Positions 1 through 38,013 of a DNA stretch of 54,755 nucleotides are shown here, piece after piece. Positions within the stretch are counted from its first letter, which is position 1. Each line of letters starts with the position of its first letter. Made by a program: the position numbers and the translations under genes. The notes beneath the pieces are model-generated. The model had not been told where the DNA came from, did not search any database, and saw nothing but the letters and a program-made list of their open reading frames with translations. The DNA lies in IMG/VR virus record IMGVR_UViG_3300004369_000851, positions 1-54,755 of that record; one strand, 5' to 3'. The DNA comes from a virus.

Positions 1-3000
1 GCGATTCAAATGCTCGAGCCCTTGCAGTGGCATCAATTATCCCAGATGCTTCTAATCGATCAAATTCGGCTTGTATGTCTTTGTCTGAACCACTTGTGGC
101 CAACGCTCTTAATCTTCCCTCTTCTTTTGTTGCGGCTCCAACCGCAGTACCTTTCATCCCGTTTGCAAAAAGTTCTCCAATGATAGGGATTAGCGAAGCC
201 GATTCAATATTCTTAACAGCTTCTTTTCTCATTTTTTTCTTATTTTTGTCAGATTGGAACCACCCATTAAGGGCGCCGACTGCACCACCAATTAGCGCAC
301 CTACACCCGTTCCAATTATTGGTATAAAACTTCCAATTAATGCGCCCGCCGCTGCACCACCTAGGGCTCCAGACATAACCCCACCACCAGTTGTTTGTGC
401 GCTCATAGATGTCCCTATTCCACCAACGGCTATACCAGCGAGTGGGGAAAATGCGCCTATTGCGGATCCAGCTTGAAGCGCGCCCTGCGCTTCGTCTGTC
501 CCCATTTTTGAAGATAAATAACTTGCGCCCATTGATCCAAGCATTGATCCTGCGCCAAGACCCCTTCTCATTGCCGCACCACCAGCTCGCATTCTGGATG
601 GTTTCATACCAGCTTTTGCTTGCGCCCTCATAGATGCTTGATAACTTTTTTGTAAACTAGTGCCACTAAAAGTTTTACCCAAAAGGCTTCCGCCGCCAGC
701 TCTGGCTTTGGCTGTCAAATTCTTGGTGCCCTGCAAGCCAGCCTTGCCGTACTGTCTCATACCCATACCGAATGGCATTTGAGGTATAAAAGCGCCCGCT
801 ACTGATGCTTTCATACCCCTCATACTTCCAATCACGCCTTTGCCTCCACTGGCTCTAAGACCTGATTGAATTTGTTGACTACGAGACATCTGTGAAGCAG
901 CCAATGCGTCATAGTTATATGGATTACCTCCACCTCTGGCAGCTCGTTGCATTCTGTCCAATTCTCTATATTGCTGTTTGTTTAATCCCCTTAGACTTGA
1001 ATACGGATCAACTGTGCTTGTTGCTCTGCCGTAAATATTTGGACCACCCGAGGAAGTGGTGTTTTTGTTGAATCCCCTACCGTAAATTGGTCGCAGGTCG
1101 GATCCCCTGTTTGCCATTTTCCAACTGTAAACATCGCGCCGATAATCCGCATTAGATTGTCCTGGCTTTCTGTTGGGTGGTCTTATGCCCACCCCTGTAG
1201 CTCGGTCTACATATCCCCCGCCCATCCCTCCCCGTAAAGCACTTCCAGCGGCGGAACTTGTTAATGCAGCGGCAGCACCAGTCAATGCTGAAGCAGCACC
1301 AGTTAAACCACTTGCGGCGCCAATTAGTGAACCACCACCAGCTGCTTGATTGGCCATAGATGTGGCTCCCGTTGCAGCCATTGGTCCAACTACTCCTCTG
1401 CCTCCGAACATACCGCTAAATGCTCCGCCTGCACCGCCCGATCCAAACCGGCTACCGTAACGCATACGGTTTCGTCGACCCTTCATGCCTAATGCAATTG
1501 TTCCCGCCACGGGCATAAATGCGCCCAGTGGTCCCATCTTTGACATTAATTTAAAGACGCCGCCAAGCGCTCTCATTATTGTGGCGATGGCATTAACTAC
1601 TTTATTGATAATGGGAATTGCTTCAGTAAAAGCTTGCTTGAAACCATCGGACATTTCAAAAAACGCCGTTACAACATTTTTCATAGCATCGCCAAAAGAA
1701 GAAAATAGTTCTTTCTTGCTAGATGCAAGATCGGCAAGATTTTTTATGTTTCGACCAAAACCTTTTAATATTTCACTAAATGGTTTACCAAACATATCTA
1801 TTACTATTCGACCACCCTCACGTAATGGACTTATTACATCAAGAAATCTTCGCGTGTAGCCCGACATTTTGTTATAAACAGAAGTGATTCTTTCAAAAAA
1901 TCCTTCAACTTCGGGTAACCATTTTCTGTTGAGGTGAACTGCAAAATCGGCAATTTTTTGGGTGGCCGCAACAATTGAATCAGTTAAGGTTGAACCACCA
2001 AACGCCAACATATCGGAACTTATCCGGCGCAGGGTTGTTCGTAAAATTTGAAAAACACTAAAGAAGGTTTTTTTCAGTGGTTCTAGTAACTCCTGACCAA
2101 TTTCAGCCATCTCACCATAAAGTTTTGTCATATACATTTTAAGTTGTGCGAAAAGCGTTTTTTGTACTGCGTCAGCGGCGCCAGCGACACCACCCTCTCT
2201 TGATAAATCTCCAGATCTTAGAACTTTGAAAAAATCAGCAGCGGTGCTCATTTTCCCCTTACCCTGATACGCCTTAAAAGCCTTCTCAAACTCTGGTCCA
2301 ACTTGTTTGGCTGCATCAAGGACTTTTTGCGTAGCTTTTCCTTCTTTTTGAATTAAGCCCAGAAAATTTCCCGCCGCCTGCATTCCTTTGGCTGTGTCAC
2401 CGCTGGCTACGGCAAAGTCCATCATCATCCTTAACCCTGCTTGCGTCTGCGGGGTAAATGCAGAATTTTTAGCCACGGCTGCGAAGGCTGCATTGAGACT
2501 CATTACGCCTGCTGTCGCAAGGGCCGAATCTTGATATAAATTTTGTAGTGCCCCTGTTGCGTCTGCCATTCCAGCTTTTACATTTGGGGATCCCTTAAAT
2601 CGGAAAGCAAACTGAGCAGCGGTAACTTCACGAAATGCGGCGGCAGCACCAAGGGCAGCAGCACCAACGGCGTTAAATGTTCCTGCAAGGGCTTGCATTG
2701 TGACACCATACGATTTGGCTAAAAACCGACCTGTGGCAAACAGAAGGTTGATGCTGGCTAAAGAGATTGCAACAATGGCAAATTCAAGACCCATAGCTAT
2801 CACCGTAAAAAGCATAATTCTTGCAACTCTGGTAAAAATCTTCATAACAGCGCTGCCGGTACCAATTGCTTTATTAAATCTAGCTGCGGAATTAGTTGCA
2901 CCAACAAGTGCGGACGACGACTGATTGGTCTGCTTACTAAATAGGGCTGCGCTTCTACTGTTGTTGTTTTGTTGTTTATTGAGTGCCGCTAGCGCCGCCG

Positions 3001-3070
3001 AGGTCGCGGCTATCGCGGCTGTATTCTTGGTGTCAACATCAATGACTATATTTACGCGCTCGTCAGCCAC
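1..3070 (-). CDS. Tape measure protein, C-terminus cut by window edge
   Basis: The minus strand is open without a stop from a GTG at 3070 to the window edge, at least 1023 residues. The GTG has GGAG six bases upstream. The product sets tail length and sits inside the tail tube. The N-terminal third is alternating hydrophobic and Ala-rich helical sequence (around 3000-1900). The central and C-terminal parts are Gly/Ala/Met-rich with hydrophobic glycine-zipper-like stretches (around 1450-250), typical of tape measures. It follows directly on the gpG/gpGT chaperone pair, the canonical position. Unusual: it carries two copies of the VxGxM motif that punctuates the giant proteins on the other strand (VVGPM at 1379-1393 and VIGSM at 821-835), which could be maturation sites. 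Family assignment rests on position, length and composition. Confidence 0.88.
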   Translation of the reverse strand, partial: MADERVNIVIDVDTKNTAAIAATSAALAALNKQQNNNSRSAALFSKQTNQSSSALVGATNSAARFNKAIGTGSAVMKIFTRVARIMLFTVIAMGLEFAIVAISLASINLLFATGRFLAKSYGVTMQALAGTFNAVGAAALGAAAAFREVTAAQFAFRFKGSPNVKAGMADATGALQNLYQDSALATAGVMSLNAAFAAVAKNSAFTPQTQAGLRMMMDFAVASGDTAKGMQAAGNFLGLIQKEGKATQKVLDAAKQVGPEFEKAFKAYQGKGKMSTAADFFKVLRSGDLSREGGVAGAADAVQKTLFAQLKMYMTKLYGEMAEIGQELLEPLKKTFFSVFQILRTTLRRISSDMLAFGGSTLTDSIVAATQKIADFAVHLNRKWLPEVEGFFERITSVYNKMSGYTRRFLDVISPLREGGRIVIDMFGKPFSEILKGFGRNIKNLADLASSKKELFSSFGDAMKNVVTAFFEMSDGFKQAFTEAIPIINKVVNAIATIMRALGGVFKLMSKMGPLGAFMPVAGTIALGMKGRRNRMRYGSRFGSGGAGGAFSGMFGGRGVVGPMAATGATSMANQAAGGGSLIGAASGLTGAASALTGAAAALTSSAAGSALRGGMGGGYVDRATGVGIRPPNRKPGQSNADYRRDVYSWKMANRGSDLRPIYGRGFNKNTTSSGGPNIYGRATSTVDPYSSLRGLNKQQYRELDRMQRAARGGGNPYNYDALAASQMSRSQQIQSGLRASGGKGVIGSMRGMKASVAGAFIPQMPFGMGMRQYGKAGLQGTKNLTAKARAGGGSLLGKTFSGTSLQKSYQASMRAQAKAGMKPSRMRAGGAAMRRGLGAGSMLGSMGASYLSSKMGTDEAQGALQAGSAIGAFSPLAGIAVGGIGTSMSAQTTGGGVMSGALGGAAAGALIGSFIPIIGTGVGALIGGAVGALNGWFQSDKNKKKMRKEAVKNIESASLIPIIGELFANGMKGTAVGAATKEEGRLRALATSGSDKDIQAEFDRLEASGIIDATARARAFES

Positions 3071-3097: not shown

Positions 3098-3786
3098 TTA
3101 ATAACCCCGTGCTTCACGCTCGGCTTCTTGCCGATCCGCTTCAACAACTTTACCACAAGCAATCAAAATGAGCCATTCTGCGGTGCTTACATTAAGAAGT
3201 TCTATTGGGCTCGCTCCAAACGCTTCGGCTAATCGCGCCGCGGTAATGACGCGATTGTCTTCCGCCAGATCATCTAGGAGCGTATCGAGGGGTTTTCAGT
3301 ACTCTCCACGTTGTCGCCGTATCCAGCTGCGTCAATAATGGCGAGAGCTGCGGATTCAAGGTGTGGATCAAGACCAAAGAAAACTTGGATCGCATCAGGA
3401 ATGGATTTTTTTGTATTAGTCATTTCAAGAATTGATGGTGAAGCGAACCCGAGGGACTTACCATTCTCGTAGGCTTCTTCGCCGTTCAACCAAATACCCA
3501 GCGTTGTGTGTCCAATAACGGTGCAAGCAAATTTTGTTGCATCAATTCCGTTCTTGGATTCCGAGCCACAATTTTTTTGCCAGGCTTTAATTTGTTGCTG
3601 GGTGATATTTGGGCTTATCAGAAGTTGCACGCCAGGCCGTTCGGGTACTGTAATAAAAATTTCCTTGCGCTTCACTTTTTTGGAGATTATCCCCTTAAGT
3701 TCGCTAAGAACATTTCCATCCAGTTCGTCTGGTGTTGAATTGTCTTGGTTGTCTTGGACTGTATATAGTTCGTCGTTGTTGCTCAT
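3098..3786 (-). CDS. Frameshifted tail assembly chaperone, gpGT-like
   Basis: A -1 slip at A AAC CCC joins the 165 zero-frame codons starting at 3786 to a frame that stays open for 64 more codons and stops with TAA at 3100-3098, giving about 229 residues. The extension has no convincing start of its own. It reads as a compact helical, acidic/basic domain containing TAEWLILIACGKVVEADR, similar in style to gpT-type C-terminal domains. It ends 27 bases before the tape measure GTG. Programmed frameshifting here is widely conserved in tailed phages. This exact product is inferred from the heptamer and the open frame. Confidence 0.72.
3274..3786 (-). CDS. Tail assembly chaperone, gpG-like (unshifted product)
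   Basis: A 170-residue acidic protein lies between the tail tube gene and the tape measure, where tail phages keep the tape-measure chaperone. The fold is not obvious from motifs; the call rests on position, size and the overlapping -1 frame extension. In lambda-like systems gpG binds the tape measure and the frameshifted gpGT recruits tube subunits. The zero frame stops at a TAG only six codons past a slippery AAACCCC heptamer (minus strand, 3295-3289), so most ribosomes should make this short form. The start is ATG at 3786. Confidence 0.75.
   Translation of the reverse strand: MSNNDELYTVQDNQDNSTPDELDGNVLSELKGIISKKVKRKEIFITVPERPGVQLLISPNITQQQIKAWQKNCGSESKNGIDATKFACTVIGHTTLGIWLNGEEAYENGKSLGFASPSILEMTNTKKSIPDAIQVFFGLDPHLESAALAIIDAAGYGDNVESTENPSIRS
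3289..3295 (-). other. Programmed -1 frameshift slippery heptamer
   Basis: On the minus strand the sequence reads A AAC CCC in the gpG frame, a perfect X XXY YYZ heptamer inside AAAACCCC. After slippage the ribosome reads AAA CCC CTC and enters the open gpT frame, while the zero frame terminates six codons later. I did not identify a strong downstream pseudoknot by eye. Confidence 0.75.
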
Positions 3787-3807: not shown

Positions 3808-3840
3808 AACTCCGCATGGCGGAACCCTAAAATCAGGGTT
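3808..3840 (-). terminator. Tandem hairpins after tail tube gene (attenuator candidate)
   Basis: Immediately after the tube gene stop, the minus strand can form AACCCT/AGGGTT (6 bp, loop of six) and then a small CCGC-cat-GCGG hairpin. There is no U-tract. The position between a highly expressed tube gene and the chaperone fits partial attenuation or mRNA end protection, but this is only a structural suggestion. Confidence 0.3.
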
Positions 3841-4285
3841 ATTGCGTTGGTTCGCCAGAGACGGCAAATGTTAAGGCAAATGTTGCTGGGGCACCAGAGG
3901 ATGAATCACCGTCTGGCTCAGACAACCCAACAAGGAGGGCCTTGGAGTAGATGCGCTCTGAGGTCTTGTCAGCCAAATCACAGTTTGTGTCATAGATTTT
4001 GACTTCATAATAGGCTCGACCAACCTGCTTGCGGAGGGTTGCAAGTTTTGTTCGTTCGTCAGATGAGTAGTGCCTGGTTAGGGTTACATCTCCAACCTCA
4101 GATGGCGCACAAAGAACCTCAGGAAATTTTGAGCCACCAACATAGATTTTCTCAACGGCGGCTGTAATTTCTCCGCCGGAAACTTGAGCAAAAAACCCAC
4201 TAATGTCTTCGCCCGTTATATCCTCACCACTCAATGGTGTGATATTTGCAAATATTTGCCTTTGAGCCAATTTCTTCGATGCCAT
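3839..4285 (-). CDS. Tail tube protein
   Basis: This 148-residue protein lies directly downstream of the sheath gene (19 bases apart) and upstream of the chaperones, the standard place for the inner tail tube subunit of a contractile tail. The sequence is beta-rich (around residues 30-75 and 88-145), with the short, polar, Gly-containing turns usual for tube proteins, and includes GGEITAAVEKIYVGG and LTRHYSSDERTKLATLRKQV. The product would stack as hexameric rings inside the sheath and around the tape measure. The assignment rests on synteny, size and composition. Confidence 0.8.
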   Translation of the reverse strand: MASKKLAQRQIFANITPLSGEDITGEDISGFFAQVSGGEITAAVEKIYVGGSKFPEVLCAPSEVGDVTLTRHYSSDERTKLATLRKQVGRAYYEVKIYDTNCDLADKTSERIYSKALLVGLSEPDGDSSSGAPATFALTFAVSGEPTQ

Positions 4286-4304: not shown

Positions 4305-5762
4305 TTAAACGACCGAAGCCGTCAAGTTTGATTTAACAATTTCTATTTCAATTGTTTCACCAATTGAAGAGATTCGGGCACCAATTTTTGCTTTAATTGT
4401 TCCTTCGGCGAGTTGGCTTATTGGATTGATTGAGTCATCAACTCTGACCGCATAGCCTGGGTCAATTTGTTTTCCCTGAGCGTTAACTGCCTCATAAACC
4501 CCGCCCGCCACAGCAATTCGATCCATAATCGCAACAAGCGATGAACGAATTTCGGCAAACAAGCTCTTACGGCCATCAATTGGTCGGAATACATGCACCT
4601 CAAGAGCACGCTTTGCTTCGTAGGTGATGTAGTTAAGCGTTTCTCTTGCGTTAATGAAACGGAAGTTCGTTACATCGCTTGATACTGAACGAGCACCATA
4701 GATGCGTGTCGTTCCGTTAACGACCTTGATTGGGTTTACTCCAGCGGTGGCAAGAGATGCTTCTTGAGATGCGGTAAGGTAACTCTGTGGCTCTGTAACA
4801 TATACGGCTTCACTTACGGCGCCGGCGTAAACATTCCAAGTGCCAGATGTGTTTTGAACCTGTGCACGCTTAGCAGCAACATATCCCTCGTTAGGAATAA
4901 GCGATGTCAAAGTGCCGTTAGGAATTCGAACCCATGGATAAAAGAATGCAGCATATTCTGCACCAGACACCACCGAGTATGTTGCAGCGGTGGTGACTGC
5001 ATCGTTTACCGTGTCCGTGGAATCAAATCCAAGAAGCGCAATTCTTCCATTTAATTTTGCGTGAGCAATCAAGGAGTCGTAATTGCCAGCTAGATAGAAA
5101 CCTGGAGCAGCAACTGCGCCCGGCCCGTATGCATCAATAAAGAATTCAAGCGCTTCGTCAAGATCGGTCTCATCAAGCGCGCCACCATCGGCGCCTCCTG
5201 TAAAAAGAGCAGCGGCGGCTGTGGCTGGCAATAAAGCCGAAGCACCAGCGTATGCGGTCACATACAATGATGCAATTGCCGAGTTGTTGATTTCATCAAC
5301 TGCGTTTGCAACCGTTGTGTGTGACTGGCTTGTAAAGACAACTACATCATTAAGTAAAACTTTAACTACGAACGAAGTCACTGGCGAACCGGTCGAAACA
5401 ACCTGTGCTTTCAATAATGTGTTAGCCCACGCTCCTTCACCAGAAGCGATGAGACCCATTGATGTAGCAGCTGCGCCATCTGCTAATGTTATTCCTCCGC
5501 TTGTGGCGTCATCTGGGATCACGCGAGATACGTAAGCTTTTGCGCCACCCTCTTCAAAAAATGATTCGAGTGTTTGATGTACCCATCCGCTTGATGTGTA
5601 TCCACCGTAAACCGTTTCGTACTCGGCAATGCTGTATACAGCAACTGCTTTTCCTTCTGGGCCACGTGTTGTCACACCCGCAACAAATAAGGTTGCGCTT
5701 GGATTGGTCTGAGCATTAGTTGGGCCCGTACGGACCGCTGTTGTAACAACTACACCTGGCAT
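4305..5762 (-). CDS. Contractile tail sheath protein
   Basis: This 485-residue protein has hallmarks of phage sheath proteins. The N-terminus MPGVVVTT leads to a beta-strand used in inter-subunit meshing. A GGAKAYVSRV segment lies at about residues 72-81, like the conserved G-(A/G)-x-x-x-V-x-R-(V/I) sheath motif. A variable inserted domain covers roughly residues 100-270. A conserved C-terminal domain ends in an EIEIVKSNL-type strand. The sheath contracts to drive the tube through the envelope, so the virion is a myovirus. The start ATG has GGAGG five bases upstream (GGAGGACGAGATG). A TATAAT box lies about 60 bases upstream. Confidence 0.93.
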   Translation of the reverse strand: MPGVVVTTAVRTGPTNAQTNPSATLFVAGVTTRGPEGKAVAVYSIAEYETVYGGYTSSGWVHQTLESFFEEGGAKAYVSRVIPDDATSGGITLADGAAATSMGLIASGEGAWANTLLKAQVVSTGSPVTSFVVKVLLNDVVVFTSQSHTTVANAVDEINNSAIASLYVTAYAGASALLPATAAAALFTGGADGGALDETDLDEALEFFIDAYGPGAVAAPGFYLAGNYDSLIAHAKLNGRIALLGFDSTDTVNDAVTTAATYSVVSGAEYAAFFYPWVRIPNGTLTSLIPNEGYVAAKRAQVQNTSGTWNVYAGAVSEAVYVTEPQSYLTASQEASLATAGVNPIKVVNGTTRIYGARSVSSDVTNFRFINARETLNYITYEAKRALEVHVFRPIDGRKSLFAEIRSSLVAIMDRIAVAGGVYEAVNAQGKQIDPGYAVRVDDSINPISQLAEGTIKAKIGARISSIGETIEIEIVKSNLTASVV

Positions 5763-14330: not shown

Positions 14331-16628
14331 ATGGCTTGGAATTCAGAATCTAATAAGCAGATAGAAACTCCATCTGTTAAATCGATTATAACACCAGGCG
14401 CCCCCGTTGCGTTCAACCCCAACCAGACTGGTAAACCATACAAAGACTCTTGGGATATTGACCGCGCATACAGAGAGGGAATGCAGCGTGTCGTTTGGGT
14501 TAATCGCTGCATTGACGCTATCTCTGGCAATCAAGCACGCCTTCCAGCAATCCTAAGAAAAGATAATTCTCCAGACGGAGAAAAAGTTTCAAAAAAAAGT
14601 CACCCAATCCTAAGGCTTTTAAACAGCAAAGCCAATTTTGGGGAAAATTCTTTCGTTTTCAGATACCGTCTTTCGTCTCAATTACTCCTGTCGTCCCGAG
14701 GGGCATTTATTGAGGTAATTCGTGGACGCGATGGCAATCCTATTGCTTTACAACTTTTACCACCGGGGCACACCTCGCCGATTCCAGACAAACGAAAATT
14801 TGTAAGTGGATTTGAGGTGGATTTAAGAAACGGAACAAAAACTATTATCGCCCCAGAAAATATAATCTGGATTAGAAAACCACATCCACTTGACCCATAT
14901 CTTTCACTCACCCCAATGGAGTCTGCTGGTGTTGCAATTGAAATTGAAAATCTGGCAAAGATATATAACAGAAATTTTTTGATAAATGACGGTCGACCAG
15001 GTGGGCTTCTTGTTGTGCGCGGAGAAATTGACGATGACGACAAAGATGAACTCCGAAACAGATTCCGTGGCAACATTTCACGGGCTGGCTCAATAAGTGT
15101 TCTTTCATCTGATGAGGGTGTGGATTTTGTTGACACTGGCGCAAGCCCCCGTGACGCCAACTACATTCAAATGCGCCAAACCACAAAAGAAGAGATTCTT
15201 GCTGCGTTCGGGGTTCCTGAATCGGTAATAGGTAACGCTTCTGGTAGAACATTCTCAAATGCGGCAGAAGAGCACCGCGTCTTTTGGAACGAAACAATGA
15301 TGCCCCATCTTGAATTGATGGCAAGAGGTCTTGATGAATTAGACGAAGATTACTATGTTGATTTTGATGTTGACGAGGTTCCTGTTCTTGTTTTGTATAG
15401 ACAAGAACGTGAGCGGTATCTTATGCAAGAATTTCAGGCTGGCCTTATTACTGGCAACGAATACAGAAACGGTACTGGTCGTAAATTAGTTGAGTCCGAT
15501 CTTATGCAGGCTATGTTGGCCAACCCGAACCTAACACCAATTGGATATACGGACAAACCTTTTAATTCCAAAGAAGAAGCCGCTGCTGCAATGGCGCAGG
15601 CTGGACCACCACAGCAGGGCTTAACCCCACCAGGGCAACCACCAGGGCTGACTGGTCCCGTCGCTGGAGAATCTGGAATGGTTGGAGAAATCCCGCCACC
15701 AGAAGTCGCTGGACAGCCCAACACAATGACCGAAGCGTTAATGGCTGAACGAGAAGCCGAGCGCGGCGCCATAACCGATATGAACCCAGACCGACAAACT
15801 GGAGACATACCAAAACCACCAGGAATGATGAGTGGCGAACCGTCGGGCATCCAAACAAAATCTAATAATTTTGCAAACCAAGAAGAAGATAGTTGGGACA
15901 CAAAATCTGACAACAATGTTGGTCGGTGGACCGAAATACTTGACAACCAACTTGAGCGATTTTTTGAGCGTCAGCAAAGAGTGGTTTTAGAAAAAGCCAC
16001 AGGTGCAAAAGCAAAAAAACAGATCAGTTCTAATTCGTTAAAAATAGAGACAATTTTTGATGAGGCAGTATGGAATAAGCAAATGATTGAAGATATGCGA
16101 CCGATTCTTTCGGGAATAGCTGTTGATGCTGGGAGTCTTGCACAAGAAGAATTTAGCATGCCTACCGAATTTGACGAAGCCGAGTTTGGAGAGTTTTTGG
16201 ATGCTCAGTCAAAAAGGCTTGAAACAACCAACGCCAATACAAAAAAAGAGATTGAAGCGGCAATTCTTATAGCGTCTTCCTTGGAAGAAGAAGAAGACAA
16301 GTCTGGATTACTCAAAGCTGCTTTGGTGGCAATTTTTATAAACCTTTTACTTAAAAGAAAAAGAACCATCGCCGAACACGAATCTCAAACAGCTTTCAAT
16401 GCGGGAACATTTTTAGCCGCAAAACAACTTGGGGCGGTTTCTAAATCATGGGTAACTCAAAAAGACTTAAAAGTGAGATCTGAGCATGTTGCGCTTCATG
16501 GTAAATCGGTGGGCTTATATCAACCATTTTCGGTGGAGGGATACAGCATAAGGTTCCCTGGAGACCCACTATCCCCACCTCACCTAACGATCAACTGTCG
16601 GTGCAAACTGAAATTTAGTCTAATTTAA
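14331..16628 (+). CDS. Portal protein fused to MuF-type head morphogenesis domain
   Basis: This 765-residue protein begins with an HK97/SPP1-type portal (about residues 25-420, including MQRVVWVNRCIDAISGN and FGVPESVIGNASGRTFSNA, a typical portal stretch). A Pro/Gly-rich linker (about 425-515, many PPG and GQP units) follows. The MuF domain occupies the last 100 residues, with SEHVALHGKSVGL and PGDPLSPPHLTINCRCKLKF; the H..L.G and NCRC signatures are clear. The portal is the dodecameric DNA gate. MuF proteins are minor head proteins, often fused to effector domains in polyvalent proteins. Fusion of the two means a dozen MuF domains per virion. The gene stop lies inside a long palindrome. Confidence 0.9.
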   Translation: MAWNSESNKQIETPSVKSIITPGAPVAFNPNQTGKPYKDSWDIDRAYREGMQRVVWVNRCIDAISGNQARLPAILRKDNSPDGEKVSKKSHPILRLLNSKANFGENSFVFRYRLSSQLLLSSRGAFIEVIRGRDGNPIALQLLPPGHTSPIPDKRKFVSGFEVDLRNGTKTIIAPENIIWIRKPHPLDPYLSLTPMESAGVAIEIENLAKIYNRNFLINDGRPGGLLVVRGEIDDDDKDELRNRFRGNISRAGSISVLSSDEGVDFVDTGASPRDANYIQMRQTTKEEILAAFGVPESVIGNASGRTFSNAAEEHRVFWNETMMPHLELMARGLDELDEDYYVDFDVDEVPVLVLYRQERERYLMQEFQAGLITGNEYRNGTGRKLVESDLMQAMLANPNLTPIGYTDKPFNSKEEAAAAMAQAGPPQQGLTPPGQPPGLTGPVAGESGMVGEIPPPEVAGQPNTMTEALMAEREAERGAITDMNPDRQTGDIPKPPGMMSGEPSGIQTKSNNFANQEEDSWDTKSDNNVGRWTEILDNQLERFFERQQRVVLEKATGAKAKKQISSNSLKIETIFDEAVWNKQMIEDMRPILSGIAVDAGSLAQEEFSMPTEFDEAEFGEFLDAQSKRLETTNANTKKEIEAAILIASSLEEEEDKSGLLKAALVAIFINLLLKRKRTIAEHESQTAFNAGTFLAAKQLGAVSKSWVTQKDLKVRSEHVALHGKSVGLYQPFSVEGYSIRFPGDPLSPPHLTINCRCKLKFSLI

Positions 16629-16726: not shown

Positions 16727-19309
16727 TTGAATAATACAAATCTCGAACCAGCCGTTGCTGAGTTCAAAGCCCTAAACGGCCAAGTCAGCATTGATCAAGC
16801 CACTGGGGTGGTTGAGTGTTTTGTTGCAGCTATAGGTAATAAAGACTCGGTCGGGGACGTCGTGCTTCCAGGAGCCTTTAACGCAAGCCTCAAGAGAAGG
16901 AAGCCGCGTGTTGTTTGGGGCCATAACTGGAATGAGCCAATTGGGAAAGTTCTTGAAATCTATGAAGTAGGTTCTAGCGACTCACGCCTTCCAGCCAAAA
17001 TGAGATCTGGTGGCGTTGGTGGATTGTATGCAAAGGTTCAATTCAATCTTGCATCAGAAAGAGGACGAGAAGCGTTTGCCAATGTAAGCTTCTTTGGCGA
17101 AGAACAAGAGTGGTCAATTGGCTACAAGACCCTTGATGCGGTCTTTGAACCAGGGCAGAACGCAAACCTACTTAAAGAAGTTGAACTTTACGAGGTAAGT
17201 CCTGTTTTGCACGGCGCCAATCAACTTACTGGGACAATAAGTATCAAAGCGGATGACGCAAACAAAGCTGATGGCGATGGGCCGTGTTGGCCTGGCTATA
17301 AACAAATCGGGATGAAAAAAGGAAAGAACGGAAACATGGTTCCAAACTGTGTCCCGATTAATGCCAAAGATGAAAAGTCTGTATTGAAAGATCCAGATGG
17401 TGGATTGACCGCAGCTGGTCGTGCACACTTCAGGAGAACCGAAGGTGCAAACCTAAAACCTGGAGTTAAGGGCGCAGCAGACACTCCAACAAAAATGCGA
17501 AGAAAAGGTTCTTTCTTGACACGGTTTTTCACCAACCCCAGTGGACCAATGAAAGACACCAAGGGACGTCCAACTCGACTCGCCCTTTCAGCCACGGCGT
17601 GGGGGGAGCCAGTTCCCCAAGATCGATCCGACGCGCTCAAACTTGCCGCAAAGGGCAGGAGATTGTTGGATCGTTACGCAAACGCAAAAAAATCTGACGA
17701 CTCGGAAATGCAAGAAAAAACGATTATTTACGCAACCGACGAAATAGGCGTATATCCAGAAATTAAAGATCTAACCAAGAATCACATAAACGATGTTTAC
17801 TCTGCAAGCATCTCGCTTGCCAGACCCCAAGATTCTGAAAAAATACAATTAACGCAGATACTTTCTCGCCACTTTGGTGGTGTACCACGAATCGTGTTTG
17901 CTGACGAAAATATTATCATTGCCGAACTAAGAAGAGACGGCGTAACTGAAACATTAAGGATTCCGTACCATAATCAAAACGGGGAATATATGTTTGGGAC
18001 AGCGCAAGCGGTAACCGCTCAAACCGTTTACACACCAGTTGATGCGACGCAACCTGGGCAGGTATTTGCTAACACATCAGAATCCTCTGAAAAAATTGGT
18101 TGTGGATGTGACTCTTGTGGGAAATCTATGCCCTCATGGGAAACATTCAAAGAGCACAATTCAGGGAAACACCTATTCATTCACAGCGTTGATGACATTG
18201 GCTTGTTTAGCGCCATTAACGAAATGTCAGAAGAAAAGCAACTTGATATTGAGCTTCTTGATGTTGGCTTAGCGATCAAAAACATACAGGACATTGATGA
18301 CAATTTATACGATGAACTTATTGAGTTCATTGATGACTTTGAGGAGAAAAACCTTAGAACGATTAGTCGTGGCACTCGCTCTATCGCTAAAAGAGTGGTG
18401 CCATTTAAGCAAAGCGCATACGATGGAAACAGCAATATGCGGGTACAAGACGGCACCGTTCACGAACGGCCAGCAAAACCGAGGATGATGCCAGCCGTTC
18501 CAGAAGAGCAACCAGTTCCCGAGAAGGTTCCTGAGCCCGTTCCCGAGAAGGTTCCACAACCAGTAAGACCACCGGCACCACATCGAGATCCCCAAAGACA
18601 ACCTCAAAGAGATCCACAGAGAGAACCAGCCACACCCGTAACGGTGCCTAAACGCCAACCCGCTCACGCCGTAACTGGAGCTATGGCTGGAGAAATGCCT
18701 TCTACATTTTGGCTCCTCAACGAAGCCACACAAGATGCTGAAATCTATAGAAAACGAATGAACGGCGCCACCCTTCAAGAAATGGCCGACAAACTGAAAT
18801 GGTCAAGGAAAAAAGTACGCGCGGCCGAACAAAGACATATGGCAAGAGTGAGGGCAAAGAAAAAAAAGGTTTTGACCGAAAGTGGGGTTGAATCAAAGAC
18901 AATTGACGACGACCTTCAGATTATGCTCCCACTTGCCTCTATTTTTAAAGCCAAGTCATTGATTGATGGGTTTGCTGATGTAAATGGTTTCACTCTCAGC
19001 GCAAACGATGATGGCATTTTGATTAAAAATATTTCGTCAATAGATAAAGAAATTATTCAGGAAATTGCCCACATAGCCGCAAAGGCAGCGGGCACTCGAA
19101 CCAACATTCCAGGTCGCAGACGAATGGTGCAACAGAACAACCCCCAGATGGGTTATCCTAAAACTGGTGGTTTAACGGCTATTTCTAATAAATATAATTG
19201 TATGGTTTCCGGCGAAAAACGCATGAAGCCATGCTCTGGTTGCGGCAACCCTAAGGGTTGTCTGTCAGAAACTATGCAATTTAAAAGGAACAAAAAAAAT
19301 GGCAAATGA
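16727..19309 (+). CDS. Prohead protease fused to a multidomain C-terminal extension
   Basis: This 860-residue protein has the HK97-type serine protease fold at residues 10-175: WGHNW with H66, EWSIGY with S130, and ELYEVSPVLHGAN, the usual protease end. The usual family length is near 200, so some 680 residues are extra. They comprise a Cys pair module (DGPCWPGYKQIG...VPNC), a DUF6321-like segment (LTAAGRAHFRRTEGANLKPG, about 225-320) and a possible C2H2-like knuckle (CGCDSCGK...H..KH). A Pro-rich linker, the VTGAM motif (649-653), a helix-turn-helix (ATLQEMADKLKWSRKKVRA) and a C-terminal Cys cluster (CSGCGNPKGC) follow. TTG start. If the VxGxM motif is a cleavage site, this protein could process itself. 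Confidence 0.88.
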   Translation: MNNTNLEPAVAEFKALNGQVSIDQATGVVECFVAAIGNKDSVGDVVLPGAFNASLKRRKPRVVWGHNWNEPIGKVLEIYEVGSSDSRLPAKMRSGGVGGLYAKVQFNLASERGREAFANVSFFGEEQEWSIGYKTLDAVFEPGQNANLLKEVELYEVSPVLHGANQLTGTISIKADDANKADGDGPCWPGYKQIGMKKGKNGNMVPNCVPINAKDEKSVLKDPDGGLTAAGRAHFRRTEGANLKPGVKGAADTPTKMRRKGSFLTRFFTNPSGPMKDTKGRPTRLALSATAWGEPVPQDRSDALKLAAKGRRLLDRYANAKKSDDSEMQEKTIIYATDEIGVYPEIKDLTKNHINDVYSASISLARPQDSEKIQLTQILSRHFGGVPRIVFADENIIIAELRRDGVTETLRIPYHNQNGEYMFGTAQAVTAQTVYTPVDATQPGQVFANTSESSEKIGCGCDSCGKSMPSWETFKEHNSGKHLFIHSVDDIGLFSAINEMSEEKQLDIELLDVGLAIKNIQDIDDNLYDELIEFIDDFEEKNLRTISRGTRSIAKRVVPFKQSAYDGNSNMRVQDGTVHERPAKPRMMPAVPEEQPVPEKVPEPVPEKVPQPVRPPAPHRDPQRQPQRDPQREPATPVTVPKRQPAHAVTGAMAGEMPSTFWLLNEATQDAEIYRKRMNGATLQEMADKLKWSRKKVRAAEQRHMARVRAKKKKVLTESGVESKTIDDDLQIMLPLASIFKAKSLIDGFADVNGFTLSANDDGILIKNISSIDKEIIQEIAHIAAKAAGTRTNIPGRRRMVQQNNPQMGYPKTGGLTAISNKYNCMVSGEKRMKPCSGCGNPKGCLSETMQFKRNKKNGK
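18483..18600 (+). repeat. Pro-rich linker, copy 1
   Basis: Within the protease fusion, MMPAVPEEQPVPEKVPEPVP and following residues are almost identical over about 30 residues to a stretch in the 2367-aa protein (38988-39085). The nucleotide copies differ mainly at third positions. This indicates an older duplication or domain exchange kept at protein level. Proline-Glu-Val-Pro repeats make an extended spacer. Confidence 0.85.
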
Positions 19310-20827: not shown

Positions 20828-23800
20828 TTGAATATGGAGGTCGCCACAGAGAGCCATATGGAAAATACAGAACCATTTGAATGCTGCCCATCTATCGGGC
20901 GTAGGGTGTCACGAACTGTCCCAATCAATAACAGGGAACCCGCAACGGCCAAAATCAAGTCTGCCAACCCCGTTGATAGGATTTTTGAAAAACTTTCTTC
21001 AAAACCCTTAAAGCCATTATTGCCATTCGGGGAAATGTTATTCAAAGCCGACAAGGATGAAACCCAAAAACCAAATCGGGAAAAAGCAACAGTTCCAGAA
21101 GATAGTGTTAAGCCCTATAAGCAGTGGTTGGAAAATTGGGAACCTGGCGATCCACTCCCTTTGATTCCACCAGGCTTCAGGGCAAATTTGTGTTCCAATC
21201 TTGGTGGCAAACTTTTAACAAGTTCTGAACGCAAAGAACGCCCATTGTTTGCGCCAATGAATGAATCCGAAATTGCCGCTTACGGTGAAAAAAGTCTTGG
21301 CTCTAGTCTCAAGGACACCGTCTACACACTTCGAGCAATGGTTGCAAAATCAAGAGGGTTATGGGTTGACTCTAAAAACAAATTGCGATGTTCTTTTGGT
21401 CCAAATGCCAACCAATACACCGACGAGTTTGGTACCAATTGTTTGGTGCCAGTCAAAATAAATGCACCTGAAGCCGTATCGTCTGGAGCAAGACTGGGAC
21501 GTCGAACCGCCACAGCAGGAGTTGTTGGCGCAATGGATGCCGGAGCAAGAGATTATCCAGACGGCTATGGCTTGGGGGGCATTGCTGGTGATAGGGAGTT
21601 TAGAACACGAGGTCGCGACAACGTGGCGATGGGTGAAGAACAACGTCGTCAGTTTAGGGACGGACTTTTTACCCTTCCAAGCGGTAAGCAAATTACCCAC
21701 TACAGAAGAAATGGGTTTTGGGGAAGCACTATCGGGGATGAAGGTCGTAGAAACTTTTTAGATTCGGTTCAAGAACTTTTTCCAAGCGTAGATCTCAAGT
21801 CAGCAGGCGAGTTTTGGGATGGATTAATTACTGAAGAGTCACCTCTCACTACTTTGCAAAAAGTACAACTTGAAGAAGTGCTTGAAGGATTTTTTCAAAG
21901 CATGTTTCAGGAAGCCAAAGCCAATCCGGAAGAAGCCCGATGGATAACAGCTTTTAAAATTGATATGAGCATAAATTCGGGCGCAGAGGTAAAACTTGAT
22001 GGCGATGCGGTATCTGGTACAAACAAAAAGGGACAACGAATTGCCAACCCCAATGAACCAATAAGTGAATCTGGATTTACGTTTGATATGAGTTTCAATC
22101 CAGTTGAATTGTATTATTTATATCAAGGCGCAAATGTAGATCAAAAACATACAGCCGTTGGAAATATGATACAAAGCACAAGATCGTTTGGTCTATATAC
22201 AGCGGTACACGAATTTGGTCATATAGGTCACTTCTCGCGATCAATGGCAAATATGGGATTTACCGCAGCCACTTTGGGTAGAACAAAAAGTGGTTCATGG
22301 AAGGTTGATCTACGGAACATACAAAACCCAAACAATCTCCCGCAGGTTGCCCGACTACAGGCAATGGCCAACAGACTTGAACAACTTCAGACTAGTTCAC
22401 GGTGGACGGTTTTACCTAGCGGTCAAAGAGTCCGCATTTATGCAAAAGATGTCAAAGAGGCAGTGCAAGAATTTTATGGCGAGCTGTTTGACACCGTCAC
22501 GCAAGACTTGGGCGGAACGGATCAAGACTTTGCGATCCTGCAACGCTTTACTGGCTCAAAATATTCTCGAGAAAATAGATTGGAAACAAGAGCTGAGGCT
22601 TGGGCCGCAGTGAGATTGTTTGGACCAGAAGCAATAAGTAAATTTGCAGAACAAGAATCCGCATACCAAACCCAAAACCCTAGATTTTTCCCAAATCCAG
22701 AAAGTCCAAGTCAGATCCAAGATCAGGTATATCAGGCGATGGATAACGTGTTCGGCCCCAAAACACGAACACAGCGGCACGAAAGACGAGACGCTTCAGG
22801 GTTTAGCCCGGTAACGGGAACTGCTGGGGCAGTGACAACACCAAGGGGTGTTTCGCGTTTTATGCCCACGAGTTTGCGCTCATCACAACCAAACAACAGA
22901 CCCAATATACCGATGCGCACACCAGGGCAAAACACCCCCGGTGCAAGTGGGCCAATGAGGGGCAACATATCTGGCGTTGTGGGCGCAATGGCGAATCACG
23001 ACAACAATAAAACTATCATAAAATATAGACCAGACTCAAAAGCTGCCGAGGCAAAAACAGCAGAAAATATTGTTGACATGCTTGCGGCGTCAAAAGTCCT
23101 TGACGAACCCATTGATATTAAACGTTTAACCATTGAGCAAAGAAATGCGTTAAGTAAAATTGTAGAGACAGTAGGAACATCAATTGACACGCAGGAGGAC
23201 ATTAGTCCAGACAATTTAAGCCGAATATCTCTTAGACCTAGCGGATCCCAACTTATGGGTATGGTCACAAAAGCTGGTGAAATTTTTGCAAAAACCCAAA
23301 AAGCAGATCCAGATTTTAAATCTCGAAAGCGTTTAAAAAACAAAAAAGACAAAGTTGCTCGATACGAAAAAGCCATAGCGGATCTTGAAGATGTTTTGAA
23401 CAAATTTAAAAAAGGTAAAGACAATACCCGTCTTGCTCAAACTGCAACCAAGTGGTCGTTCGGCTCTTGGGGAAGTGAATACGTCAGCGATATTTCCAAT
23501 TCGACTTCAGAAAAATCATTTCTTGATGCCGTCAAGAGAACACTTGATGTCTACCGCACCAAAACACGGACACTAAAAGGTGATATAGCGTTTGCTCCGA
23601 TCTTGATCCCTGACTCCAGAGAGCGCAGGATTGACACTATGTCCAACAAACGGATTGTTAATGAAATAAAAAACTCTGGTCAAGAACACATCCTTGGAGT
23701 TCTTTCAGGGATGGATCAAGTTAATAAAAGATTTCCTTGGATGAGGGGTTCTTCGGTAATTAGTTTTGGGATACGAGGAAGGGCTCTGGGTCGGAGAGCC

Positions 23801-26800
23801 ACATATGTTCGAGAAGAGCCACGGATTGCAGAAGTGGGTAAATTTAATGGTGGTCAAGCACTTACTGAGGGTTCTGGTACTGGCAAAATACTCCCAACAA
23901 TAGAATTCACGCTTATCGCATCAGAACCAGAATCAGAATCGGATTACGTTTCGGAACCAAACGATCGCGATGTTGGAAAATTTGGATCGACAAGAGTAAG
24001 TTCGGCCAATCTTGCTTACCACGAATCAGGGCACATAGTTGAACAGGTGCTTATGGCAAGGGGATTGGGGTTGCAGGTCGGGCCAAATTCTCCAACAATA
24101 CTTAGGCAACTCAGAGATGTCGGGCCAGAACTTGGCGACACCGTTGCTGGTGCGTTGTTTGCTTTTAGTACAGGGAAAGCCCTTGATGCCAAAATTGATT
24201 CACTTGACTCAGTAGACGAATTGGCTTTGGTGGAGAGTGTGGGTCAAAGAGTATATTTGGATCTGTCACGGGATCGAACTCGCGGCCCTTCAAATTTCAG
24301 AACAAGATTTCTCTCTGGGTTCTGGACTGCAACTGAGACCAAAAACGGTGTCAAGACGGGAGAGTGGACTTATTCGCCATGGCGAAGAGGTTTGATTGAC
24401 CTGGGCGGGGATTCCAAAGATGTACGCGCAGATTTTGCGTCAGCAGAAAAAATATTGAGCGATGCCCTAGGTTGGGATATAGACGAACACCCAATATCAA
24501 ATTTACAAGAATTATTAGTTCAGGCGGAGCAAACATCCCTTTACGCTCAAACCAGTGAATCTGAGGCTTTTGCTGAACTATTTGCCCTAATGATGCAGAT
24601 TGAGCAATACGGACAACTTGATCCCGACGGTCAAAATTCAAAAAAACCACAGCAACTGGCAAAAATGATGGCGGACGCAGTGGATAATTCCGTGTCTCAC
24701 GATAAGCCTGTTGCTTTGTCTCTCAACCAAAAACAAGAATTGCAAAGATTGCAAAAAAAATTAAATTCGCTTGCGGTGCTTGCTGATGGAAGCCGATTTG
24801 ACGATACTGATCTTTCTACGGAAAAGCGTTCTAGTGACAATCCAGCGGTTGACACACGACAGATAAAAATAATTGATTTAGATAACGAATCAATATCTGG
24901 AACGGATGTTAAAATACCGTATGAGTGGGAAAACAGCAATGGCCTAATTGGTCGAATGGCATCGTTCCGAACTTCAGACGAAAAGAATTTCTTATTTGAC
25001 AAAGACGGGAAAGTAATCTCACCCAAGACGGGGAGGCAAGACGGTGGGGTTGTTGGCCGTATGGCTGATCGAGTTGTTTTTGTTGAAAGCACAGAGCTGG
25101 ACAGCCTTAGATTTGCCCCCAGATACGAAACACCAACATTCACAAGGAACGGCATCGTGGGAGTGATGCACGATGAAACAAATCTAAACACAACAACATT
25201 TGCCAAGTTGAGGGAACAGGGTGAAAGTTTTAACTCTGCATTTATTAGGTCTGGAGGAAAATTACAAAAAAAACTAGTTCCCCTATCGTCAAAACCAGAT
25301 ACTGGGTTACACCCAGTCAGCTGGAATGATAAGACTGGCAAATTTGACATAAGTGGCGAAATAACATCAATCACGATGGCGTCAGACTCGCCCCGTGGGG
25401 TTGTTGGCCGCATGGCTGACGAACATGGTTTTTCTGGAGAACTTACTCAAGTGCGAAACGCATTTAAGCGAAACATAAAACCTCCTGAAAGAATTTCAAT
25501 ACCAAGTGAATGGTTTATTCAGGATCCAAAAATAGATGCCGAAAAACGAGCAAGACAGGCATTCCCGGATATACACATGCGCTATGAAGAACAATATGGT
25601 ATGCGTCGGTATGTGCCAGCCACTGGCAAATTAAAAGATGATGCTAGCCCTGTCGATAAAATGCAGGATATGGACCGTGCTAGTTATTTTATGTGGCGCA
25701 AATACTGGATGCCAAGCGTTGCTTCCGCAAAATCCGAACTTGGAAATGTTTTATATTATTGGCGCAACAGTTACTCCCAAAGCAGGGCTCTTGCTCTAGC
25801 TGTTGGTGGCTCTTCAGAAGGTATTGCAGAAACATACAGAGAAGATGCAGATTTTTTTAAAAAGGCTGAAATCTTAAGAAAAGCCCTTGATGTCGCCCCA
25901 CCAATGGGTACAAAAACCTACAGAACGATGCGCCTGACAGATGATGTTGGCCAGTCGGCCAATGTTGGTGATGAATTAAATTTTACTGCGGCATCTGTTG
26001 CTTGGAGCGAAAAAACCGCTATGGCGTACGATCTTGACGAACTCAGTATGAGGGCCAATGTTCCAGACAAAATACTGATGGAATTTCCAGCCGACACCCG
26101 AGGTATTTTACACGACGAAATGGGATTAAAGCAAGAGGGGAAATATTACGCCAAGAATGGGGATCAGGCACCTGTTGAGGGAATTGTTTCGGGAAGATTT
26201 AAGGTATCCAAAATTGAGGAAAGAACTCTCACAAACCCCAGAACGGGCGAGGATGTCAAAAGAAAAGTCCATGTTCTGGAAGCGGTTACTGGACGTATGT
26301 CTAGCCCGCGTCAAATAAAGTCAAATATTGAAGATGCATTTGATAAAGCCGATCTAGACATAGATATTGCCGACGAGCGCATTTATGGCCTTGAAAAAGC
26401 CCTTGCTGACTTTAAGAAATCTGGATTCTGGAATGGTGCTGACTACGGAGTAGTGCTAGGGCTTGGAAATAATATTATTGACGGAGATAGTCGTTTTGAT
26501 TCAGATATTGATCCAGCCAACCTAACCCCGGATCAACTTACAATACGAAAAGTGTCCAGAAACGACATGGTTGAGCGAATTGAAAACAAAATAGAACTTG
26601 CAAAAATCGAAAGTCGTTTAAGAAAACTCATAGCAGAAAAAAAACAAATTCGTGCATCGCAAAACACGCTTGATGTTGAGGATATTCCAGAGGAAATACT
26701 AGAACAACTCCAGCGTGAGCAAGAGGGATTAGAGAAGTTGTATCAGTCCGACCAGAAGGCATTTTGGTCAATAGTCAACCCAGACGATAGTGAGTCTATT

Positions 26801-28135
26801 GCTGCGGTCCATGCAGGCGTCGCTGAGCTGGATGGCGGGGTTCTTAATCCAAACAAGACAATGGGCGGGGGTGGGTCGCCAGGATCTAGCGGTGACACGC
26901 AAGCATTGAACGCTATGCAAATAAGAAAAATCAAAGATGAACTCAAAGATGCTGAGGGTGAAAAGTTTTCTCGTTTATCAAAAATTATAGAAAGACTTAA
27001 TGAAAGTCCAAAAAGCGGATTTTTGTCTGCTTATCGACTTGGGCAAAACGCATCAGCCGGAGACACGAGAGGCTATTTTGCAAGATACTCGGAGGATATG
27101 GTTCCCAAGGAACTTCACAACGATGATATGCGGAAAAGATGGGCGTCCCTAGCGAGGGGTACGCAGTATCTGTTTATCGGAAAGAAAGATCAAGACGTCA
27201 CTAATCTTCTCGGCGCCAGTGATGAAACTCAAATAGTGGGCATTAATCCACCCCTGTTTGGATTGTCAGAAAGAGCAAATAGTTCATCTCGCCAAATAGA
27301 CAAAGTGAATCTGGCAATATTTGCTCGAGCCACAAGACTTCAAAGCCAGAGTGCCGACGTAACACCATCTTCCGTTCTTGATTTTGACGGCGTTGGTGGC
27401 TTGGTTGGCGCAATGGGCACCAAAAAAAATAAAAAGGGTAAACGAGAATTGCTTTACGAAAGACTAACGAACGCTTGGAGGACCAAAGATCCCTCGGACT
27501 GGACCGACCAAGATGTCTACTATGCGAGACTGGCTGGCGTAACAATAAGTGAAATTGCGGAAAGGTTGAATATTCCCCGGTCCGAGGTGAGGCGCAGAAG
27601 AAGAAAATTTGTGAACAAACAAATGAAACTTCGCAATACGAATCAAACATCACTGAGCGTAAACCAGGTTCTTAACGATGATATTTTGGCTCGCTGGGGA
27701 TATGGCAGGGGGATCTTAAACAAACCAGTGGATGACGGATCGGTTCCTCCCGTAGTGGGACAAATGACAACAGGTCCACGCGATTGGCCATCGTATGGTA
27801 ATTTTTATAGCGTTTTAGGTGTTGACAGAAATTCGAGTTCTAGGGATTTAAAAAAGGCATATATAGAAAAAGCAAAAATACTGCACCCCGATACAGACAA
27901 AACAGAGGGGGCAACAGAAAGATTCAAAGAATTACAAGCAGCCTATGAAACCCTTTCTGACGACGTAAATAAAAGAATGTATAACGAATGGCTTGACAGA
28001 CAGGGGGTCGTAGACGAGACACCAGAACGCAGACCAGATCCATCAGACCCAGAAACGACTGAAGGAAATGTTCAGTCAATACTGAATGATATGAGGCGCG
28101 CGCAAGAACGAATGAGACGGAATTCCAGACGATGA
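20828..28135 (+). CDS. Giant 2435-aa polyvalent protein: two peptidases, ART-like, HTH and J-domain
   Basis: The modules, in order, are: a leader with a Cys...QYT...Cys module (C188, C205); a first zinc peptidase (HEFGH 461-465, later TRAEAWAA); a second one (HESGH 1065-1069, later SESEAFAELFA); an ADP-ribosyltransferase-like domain (TYRTMRL with R1699/R1701, FTAASVAWSEKTA, and E1784 in VEGIVSGRFKV); a helix-turn-helix (about 2225-2260); and a C-terminal J-domain with HPD at 2353-2355. Eight VxGxM-type motifs (231, 716, 1372, 1407, 1442, 1524, 2191, 2309) lie between modules. Start TTG shown; an ATG is two codons in. Such assemblies match the polyvalent proteins of phages and conjugative elements, thought to enter the host with DNA. 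Effector roles are inferred from domain families. Confidence 0.85.
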   Translation: MNMEVATESHMENTEPFECCPSIGRRVSRTVPINNREPATAKIKSANPVDRIFEKLSSKPLKPLLPFGEMLFKADKDETQKPNREKATVPEDSVKPYKQWLENWEPGDPLPLIPPGFRANLCSNLGGKLLTSSERKERPLFAPMNESEIAAYGEKSLGSSLKDTVYTLRAMVAKSRGLWVDSKNKLRCSFGPNANQYTDEFGTNCLVPVKINAPEAVSSGARLGRRTATAGVVGAMDAGARDYPDGYGLGGIAGDREFRTRGRDNVAMGEEQRRQFRDGLFTLPSGKQITHYRRNGFWGSTIGDEGRRNFLDSVQELFPSVDLKSAGEFWDGLITEESPLTTLQKVQLEEVLEGFFQSMFQEAKANPEEARWITAFKIDMSINSGAEVKLDGDAVSGTNKKGQRIANPNEPISESGFTFDMSFNPVELYYLYQGANVDQKHTAVGNMIQSTRSFGLYTAVHEFGHIGHFSRSMANMGFTAATLGRTKSGSWKVDLRNIQNPNNLPQVARLQAMANRLEQLQTSSRWTVLPSGQRVRIYAKDVKEAVQEFYGELFDTVTQDLGGTDQDFAILQRFTGSKYSRENRLETRAEAWAAVRLFGPEAISKFAEQESAYQTQNPRFFPNPESPSQIQDQVYQAMDNVFGPKTRTQRHERRDASGFSPVTGTAGAVTTPRGVSRFMPTSLRSSQPNNRPNIPMRTPGQNTPGASGPMRGNISGVVGAMANHDNNKTIIKYRPDSKAAEAKTAENIVDMLAASKVLDEPIDIKRLTIEQRNALSKIVETVGTSIDTQEDISPDNLSRISLRPSGSQLMGMVTKAGEIFAKTQKADPDFKSRKRLKNKKDKVARYEKAIADLEDVLNKFKKGKDNTRLAQTATKWSFGSWGSEYVSDISNSTSEKSFLDAVKRTLDVYRTKTRTLKGDIAFAPILIPDSRERRIDTMSNKRIVNEIKNSGQEHILGVLSGMDQVNKRFPWMRGSSVISFGIRGRALGRRATYVREEPRIAEVGKFNGGQALTEGSGTGKILPTIEFTLIASEPESESDYVSEPNDRDVGKFGSTRVSSANLAYHESGHIVEQVLMARGLGLQVGPNSPTILRQLRDVGPELGDTVAGALFAFSTGKALDAKIDSLDSVDELALVESVGQRVYLDLSRDRTRGPSNFRTRFLSGFWTATETKNGVKTGEWTYSPWRRGLIDLGGDSKDVRADFASAEKILSDALGWDIDEHPISNLQELLVQAEQTSLYAQTSESEAFAELFALMMQIEQYGQLDPDGQNSKKPQQLAKMMADAVDNSVSHDKPVALSLNQKQELQRLQKKLNSLAVLADGSRFDDTDLSTEKRSSDNPAVDTRQIKIIDLDNESISGTDVKIPYEWENSNGLIGRMASFRTSDEKNFLFDKDGKVISPKTGRQDGGVVGRMADRVVFVESTELDSLRFAPRYETPTFTRNGIVGVMHDETNLNTTTFAKLREQGESFNSAFIRSGGKLQKKLVPLSSKPDTGLHPVSWNDKTGKFDISGEITSITMASDSPRGVVGRMADEHGFSGELTQVRNAFKRNIKPPERISIPSEWFIQDPKIDAEKRARQAFPDIHMRYEEQYGMRRYVPATGKLKDDASPVDKMQDMDRASYFMWRKYWMPSVASAKSELGNVLYYWRNSYSQSRALALAVGGSSEGIAETYREDADFFKKAEILRKALDVAPPMGTKTYRTMRLTDDVGQSANVGDELNFTAASVAWSEKTAMAYDLDELSMRANVPDKILMEFPADTRGILHDEMGLKQEGKYYAKNGDQAPVEGIVSGRFKVSKIEERTLTNPRTGEDVKRKVHVLEAVTGRMSSPRQIKSNIEDAFDKADLDIDIADERIYGLEKALADFKKSGFWNGADYGVVLGLGNNIIDGDSRFDSDIDPANLTPDQLTIRKVSRNDMVERIENKIELAKIESRLRKLIAEKKQIRASQNTLDVEDIPEEILEQLQREQEGLEKLYQSDQKAFWSIVNPDDSESIAAVHAGVAELDGGVLNPNKTMGGGGSPGSSGDTQALNAMQIRKIKDELKDAEGEKFSRLSKIIERLNESPKSGFLSAYRLGQNASAGDTRGYFARYSEDMVPKELHNDDMRKRWASLARGTQYLFIGKKDQDVTNLLGASDETQIVGINPPLFGLSERANSSSRQIDKVNLAIFARATRLQSQSADVTPSSVLDFDGVGGLVGAMGTKKNKKGKRELLYERLTNAWRTKDPSDWTDQDVYYARLAGVTISEIAERLNIPRSEVRRRRRKFVNKQMKLRNTNQTSLSVNQVLNDDILARWGYGRGILNKPVDDGSVPPVVGQMTTGPRDWPSYGNFYSVLGVDRNSSSRDLKKAYIEKAKILHPDTDKTEGATERFKELQAAYETLSDDVNKRMYNEWLDRQGVVDETPERRPDPSDPETTEGNVQSILNDMRRAQERMRRNSRR

Positions 28136-28437: not shown

Positions 28438-28523
28438 TGCCACAAGATGAACTAGTGCTAATATTGTTCAGGGTTGAGCGTGCCTCCCTGTGCCAATTTA
28501 AGAGGCTGATAAATGGTCAATAA
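28437..28523 (+). CDS. Possible 28-aa coupled peptide
   Basis: TAATG couples this frame to the previous stop. It encodes a 28-residue peptide (start MPQDELVLILFRVERASL) and ends 11 bases inside the next gene. It bridges the only gap here, so it may serve translational coupling rather than encode a functional product. No homology can be judged at this length. Confidence 0.3.
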   Translation: MPQDELVLILFRVERASLCQFKRLINGQ

Positions 28524-37975: not shown

Positions 37976-38000
37976 AGTAACCACTGTGTGTTACTTTTTT
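37976..38000 (+). terminator. Rho-independent terminator candidate before the 2367-aa gene
   Basis: AGTAAC and GTTACT form a 6-bp stem around CACTGTGT, directly followed by six T residues. It lies 13 bases before the preferred ATG of the next gene, so read-through or attenuation would control that gene. Confidence 0.4.
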
Positions 38001-38013
38001 GTGGACGGAATTA

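Follow-up and report, generated by a model that had tools for sequence, protein, structure and literature searches.

A G-x-M motif common to the tape measure protein and giant proteins of an uncultured phage, and its probable role as a processing signal

The tape measure protein (TMP) encoded in a 54,755-nucleotide virus fragment from an uncultured phage (IMG/VR record IMGVR_UViG_3300004369_000851; the whole stretch is hereafter called the window) carries two copies, VVGPM and VIGSM, of a motif that recurs across giant proteins encoded on the opposite strand. Judged from sequence, it seems rather probable that the two peptides are part of a phage-specific processing signal read by one trans-acting factor, most likely an endoprotease. 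Neither chance nor Gly/Met composition explains the motif in the TMP. The tail features of the window that bear on this proposal are as follows.

2–3070, minus strand: TMP, first 1023 residues visible; truncated by the window edge
3274–3786: tail chaperone gene
3839–4285: tail tube gene
4305–5762: tail sheath gene
1472–1483, minus strand: KGRR anchor, TMP residues 530–533, closing the conserved helical N-terminal part
1379–1396, minus strand: site 1, GVVGPM, TMP residues 559–564 (VVGPM, residues 560–564, at 1379–1393)
1223–1240, minus strand: weaker intermediate copy, ALRGGM, TMP residues 611–616 (LRGGM at 1223–1237)
821–838, minus strand: site 2, GVIGSM, TMP residues 745–750 (VIGSM, residues 746–750, at 821–835)
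263–370, minus strand: Gly-zipper segment, TMP residues 901–936 (Pfam PF13488, E 3e-7)

The ORF at 2–3070 matches the PHROG family 'tail length tape measure protein' (E 9e-6), an identity that is backed by the upstream chaperone, tube, and sheath genes, and the gene order around it is of the contractile-tail type. The first-pass annotation had placed VVGPM and VIGSM in this protein and called them the giants' motif, present twice. Both are indeed in frame in the minus-strand TMP, both match the φ-[STVIRP]-G-x-M of the plus-strand giants, and with the preceding Gly counted in both fit the giants' strict motif; its count of copies needs the addition of ALRGGM, the weaker third copy between them, which recurs as TLRGGM, SLRGGM, or ALRGGM in the related loci L195, L197, L262, L275, and L280. 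The strict motif is observed twice in the window TMP where 0.11 copies are expected (p 0.0045, whole-protein shuffles), and because the region is rich in Gly, Ala, and Met, orthologs with local shuffles provide the stronger test. An AlphaFold model of the window TMP is poor (mean pLDDT 45) and was used for coil assignment only; in this low-confidence model the sites lie in predicted coils (residues 542–590 and 739–770), where pLDDT is lowest; both coils follow the helical N-terminal part and precede the Gly-zipper.

Searches of IMG/VR and a phage collection with the TMP as a single query returned no close TMP relatives. Capsid- and portal-based searches yielded 160 loci on related contigs; 50 of the whole related records were searched, yielding TMPs in 25, and alignment-based searches added more, for a total of 44 non-redundant TMPs. 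The orthologous TMPs are 1193–1985 residues long, K530 and G531 of the KGR anchor are invariant in their alignment, and the clade set for the linker test contains 22 proteins. The linkers of these 22 TMPs hold 48 motif copies versus 6.8 expected (standard deviation 2.6, maximum 15; 1000 local shuffles, block length 20), and the 85 residues that follow the KGR anchor hold 31 versus 2.1 expected from local shuffles. These counts, together with the dialect controls described below, speak against the idea, raised beforehand, that Gly/Met-rich composition could produce the motif. Conservation of both sites had been set in advance as the check; it is complete for site 1, where all 22 TMPs have a copy no more than 85 residues past the anchor, and partial for site 2, with a copy nearby in about 14 of the 22.

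The relatives spell the motif in several ways. GVPGAM/GLSGAM, GIPGGM, KLAGAM, and NIAGAM occur in the region aligned with site 1, with SIAGAM, SLSGAM, PLSGAM, and ALAGAM near it, and ALTGGM, TVSGAM, GITGAM, GISGKM, GVTGAM, and GISGAM occur in the region aligned with site 2. Non-conservation had been considered when a strict VxGxM scan of the orthologs found no copies, a conclusion that was wrong since relatives have S, A, T, or P for V/I. Met-less versions of site 2 (GLTGAT, GMTGAA, GIVGAA, GISGAV, GITGAL) are found in L192, L193, L197, L198, and L202; in the two closest orthologs, L192 and L193, the aligned site is kept without Met, as GLTGAT and GMTGAA. There is no clear enrichment in the TMPs of other clades (17 copies versus 10.3 expected) and none in ORFs under 500 aa (6 versus 11). 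Copies are also in excess in the N-terminal part of the 22 TMPs (14 versus 3.9), mostly near residues 45–60, where many relatives have a motif copy and the window has ALVGAT, and in the part past the linker (24 versus 7.4, some within the conserved Gly-zipper), although the excess in these conserved N- and C-terminal parts comes partly from homologous positions counted repeatedly. The N-terminal copies (residues about 45–113), found in L195, L196, L197, L200, L201, and L207, read RLTGAM, NLTGAM, ALTGAM, RLAGRM, QLSGSM, and SNSGAM, often in the dialect of their own genome. The C-terminal part of the relatives' TMPs yielded no identification from sequence.

On the plus strand of the window, the motif is carried by the following proteins.

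16727–19309, plus strand: S78 prohead protease and DUF6321 protein (Pfam Peptidase_S78 E 7e-12, DUF6321 E 1e-28); VTGAM at 18671–18685
20828–28135, plus strand: giant G1, 2435 aa, DnaJ at the C-terminus; nine strict copies, at 21521, 22976, 24944, 25049, 25154, 25400, 26285, 27401, and 27752
37999–45117, plus strand: giant G4, 2372 aa, NUDIX and Zeta toxin domains; motif copies at 40369, 40441, 42628, 42652, 43753, and 44101
47610–50003, plus strand: G5, 797 aa; motif copies at 48336, 49281, and 49317

The nine strict copies in G1 compare with 0.07 expected; G4 and G5 have three each and the S78 protein one, within AVTGAM, while the remaining window ORFs tested (outside these four proteins and the TMP) have none. 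G2 and G3 are without the strict motif, though they are located among the other giants. The domain mix is of the polyvalent type, with DnaJ in G1, NUDIX and Zeta toxin in G4, and NUDIX, DnaJ, Zeta, S78, and HTH in other giants, and the position of the giants among the head genes, the sole basis for this proposal, suggests that they may be packaged and injected into the host. The DUF6321 domain contains a conserved NPSGPM (17537–17551) that is motif-like but intradomain, and it was excluded from the site counts in the dialect and boundary tests. The S78 protein (18485–18574) and G4 (38989–39078) have in common a near-identical 30-residue proline-rich stretch (MMPAVPEEQPVPEKVPEPVPE..PQPVRPP), and G3 has a (TP)8 run at 34405–34452 within a long Pro/Thr-rich linker. 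The portal (14331–16628) carries a fused MuF domain; Streptomyces phage Gilgamesh has the same fusion, and there a 4624-aa giant adjoins the portal-MuF gene but is without the motif.

The motif of the giants differs from genome to genome. In an unseeded pattern scan of the large ORFs of relatives, ISG.M was among the strongest patterns (53 copies versus 0.9 expected), with other patterns near the top deriving from one conserved domain; the motif form was widened after inspection of the data, though this unseeded scan first gave ISG.M. The window uses V[VIT]GxM, genomes G014 and G018 use ISGRM, G011 I[ST]GKM, G040 PVGxM, G042 PSGSM, G043 DSGAM, and G046 LSGSM. Motif similarity is 1.54 within genomes versus 0.73 between them, and 500 permutations never gave a difference greater than 0.10.

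Within the motif Gly is enriched 18-fold and Met 20-fold, the residue between them is free, and Ser, Ala, or Gly tends to come next, so that at the level of sequence the motif fits a P3-x-P1-type layout with a putative small P1' residue. Just 1 of 74 sites lies inside a Pfam domain versus 7.3 expected, and 52% of sites fall within 15 aa of the end of a homology block versus 29% expected; sites and background were equally covered by homology blocks (88% for both), whereas block ends did distinguish them. The avoidance of Pfam domains, the placement at block ends, and the strict G and M together point to a cleavage signal between modules. We infer from this that cutting may take place, and where. 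The signal would have the form φ-[S/T/V/I]-G-x-M with a small residue after it, and one factor would recognize it in the linkers of the giants as well as in the disordered TMP linker. An endoprotease would cut after the Met, with Gly at P3, P2 free, Met at P1, and S/A/G at P1'. In the giants such cutting would separate modules, and in the TMP it would detach the helical N-terminal part from the Gly-zipper and the C-terminal part that follow, perhaps with removal of the variable segment between the sites. A putative protease that would cut after GxM, by analogy with SPN3US gp245 cutting after AxE, is the best explanation given the head-protease-like architecture, the position in linkers and at module boundaries, and the strictness of G and M. 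It is rather unlikely that the motif is instead a docking signal, with a phage chaperone, adaptor, or scaffold that binds φ-x-G-x-M in disordered linkers and so holds or delivers large virion proteins. Docking would account for the dialects, the linker position, the sharing between tail and cargo, and a capsid protein that has no site, but neither the placement at module boundaries nor the S/A/G preference right after Met is predicted by it.

The TMP sites fit the giants of their own genome (p 0.0024, fixed rule, 12 genomes; p 0.0043 with a composition prior), while a decoy of identical layout that lacks Met does not (p 0.98) and genome composition alone has a very small effect (p 0.048), all of these values being indicative since the genomes are related and not independent. 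The window is the clearest case, with V/I before Gly in both TMP and giants and its own giants as the best fit. A genuine motif in the giants could still be matched in the TMP by coincidence, through a linker rich in Gly, Ala, and Met, and the Met-less site 2 of L192 and L193, the absence of the strict spelling from close TMPs, and a whole-protein p of only 0.0045 for a pattern chosen post hoc would agree with this. We consider it quite improbable, however, as every one of the 22 TMPs has a copy in the first 85 aa after the anchor although only about two copies are expected, and the own-dialect match survives both the decoy and the composition controls. Positional conservation, genome dialects, and the controlled match between TMP and giant dialects make a common trans-acting factor across strands and functions well supported. 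The first-pass annotation had argued for "a common recognising factor, such as a protease"; the factor stands on these three lines of evidence, and a protease would be its best reading.

Two further readings were rejected. Internal translation starts at the Met, by which modules would also be made separately, would explain why Met is strictly required, and naive Shine-Dalgarno scores exceed those at other internal Mets; synonymous recoding reversed this result, with scores weaker than expected (−3.16 versus −3.53, 285 sites), and the dialect residues are left unexplained, which makes this reading highly improbable. The chance is equally slight that the copies spread as DNA repeats aiding recombination between modules, a reading that fits the clustering of homology-block ends near sites and is largely refuted by the varied codons with which copies of one peptide are written, an indication that selection acts on the protein, and by the TMP copies, which are encoded on the opposite strand with unrelated sequence around them.

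If the processing signal is indeed read by a protease, the S78 prohead protease is no more than a candidate recognizer. An S78 domain is encoded in 13 of 13 genomes tested and in the window, and in these 13 genomes, a number that gives low power, S78 distance did not follow dialect (Spearman 0.04, Mantel p 0.37). The usual substrate of S78 enzymes is the capsid protein, and its lack of the motif counts against a reading in terms of S78 or a head protease.

46151–47485, plus strand: major capsid protein (Pfam Phage_capsid E 6e-42)

Across 40 aligned capsid sequences, the N-terminal part contains no GxM and only a conserved [AV]NM. This [AV]NM is followed by a Pro-containing stretch (xSPF/xAPW) near the expected HK97-type cut region, and the isolates GMA6 and Cantare also have Met at this position. 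HExxH segments are present in G1 (HEFGH and HESGH, 22208–22222 and 24020–24034) and in a small ORF at 28513–29175 (HEHGH); they may mark metallopeptidase modules, which would be possible processing enzymes.

More tentatively, and with somewhat less than even confidence, we suggest that one private code, φ-x-G-x-M, serves a widespread lineage of uncultured phages in processing both packaged giant effectors and the TMP, and that this code drifts between phages, with the protease and its scattered sites on both strands changing together so that each code fits its own substrates. If true, the motif would allow the points at which giant multidomain phage proteins are divided into working parts to be read from sequence, one factor would tie tail processing to cargo processing, and the genomes would hold a natural record of a recognizer and dozens of scattered sites shifting specificity together. 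The maturation of polyvalent phage proteins would also become directly testable by mass spectrometry.

Proteolytic head maturation, TMP processing, and polyvalent proteins are already known (PMC5512222), while the open literature as far as covered, with most subscription journals outside it, holds no description of a GxM code common to giants and TMP or of genome dialects. For polyvalent proteins, domain release by embedded peptidases has been proposed (Iyer et al. 2017, PMC5512222), and DarA of phage P1 is cleaved and packaged. The giants resemble these proteins in being very long and multidomain, in their place beside portal/MuF genes, and in their HExxH segments and assemblin-like (S78) peptidase; in the 12 of 33 matching places covered in that paper, no linker cleavage motif, dialect, or link to the TMP is described. 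As tails assemble, the TMPs of T5 (pb2) and lambda are cleaved (PMC10038345); processing is said to be common among TMPs, and loss of an internal segment is known as well (PMC1796659). A similar cut is predicted here from the motif, and site 1 has features expected of such a cleavage point: it is conserved and lies in predicted coil, where the chain joining the domains would be flexible. The T5 cut, after R1127, parts the hydrophobic portion of pb2 from the enzymatic portion, whereas the sites described here are N-terminal to the Gly-zipper, and the available portions of those accounts report no site common with cargo proteins (PMC10038345, PMC1796659). The SPN3US prohead protease gp245 cuts after A-X-E, with a preference for Val (P4) and Ser (P1') (PMC10052503, as are the comparisons that follow). 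Its reported substrates are head proteins from which cuts remove propeptides, and no genome dialects are described for it, whereas here the motif is G-x-M, the sites separate modules, and a TMP is among the proteins that carry them. The two systems are nevertheless alike in having two fixed residues at P3 and P1, a free P2, Ser favored at P1', and several sites per substrate, with packaged ejection proteins among the substrates of gp245.
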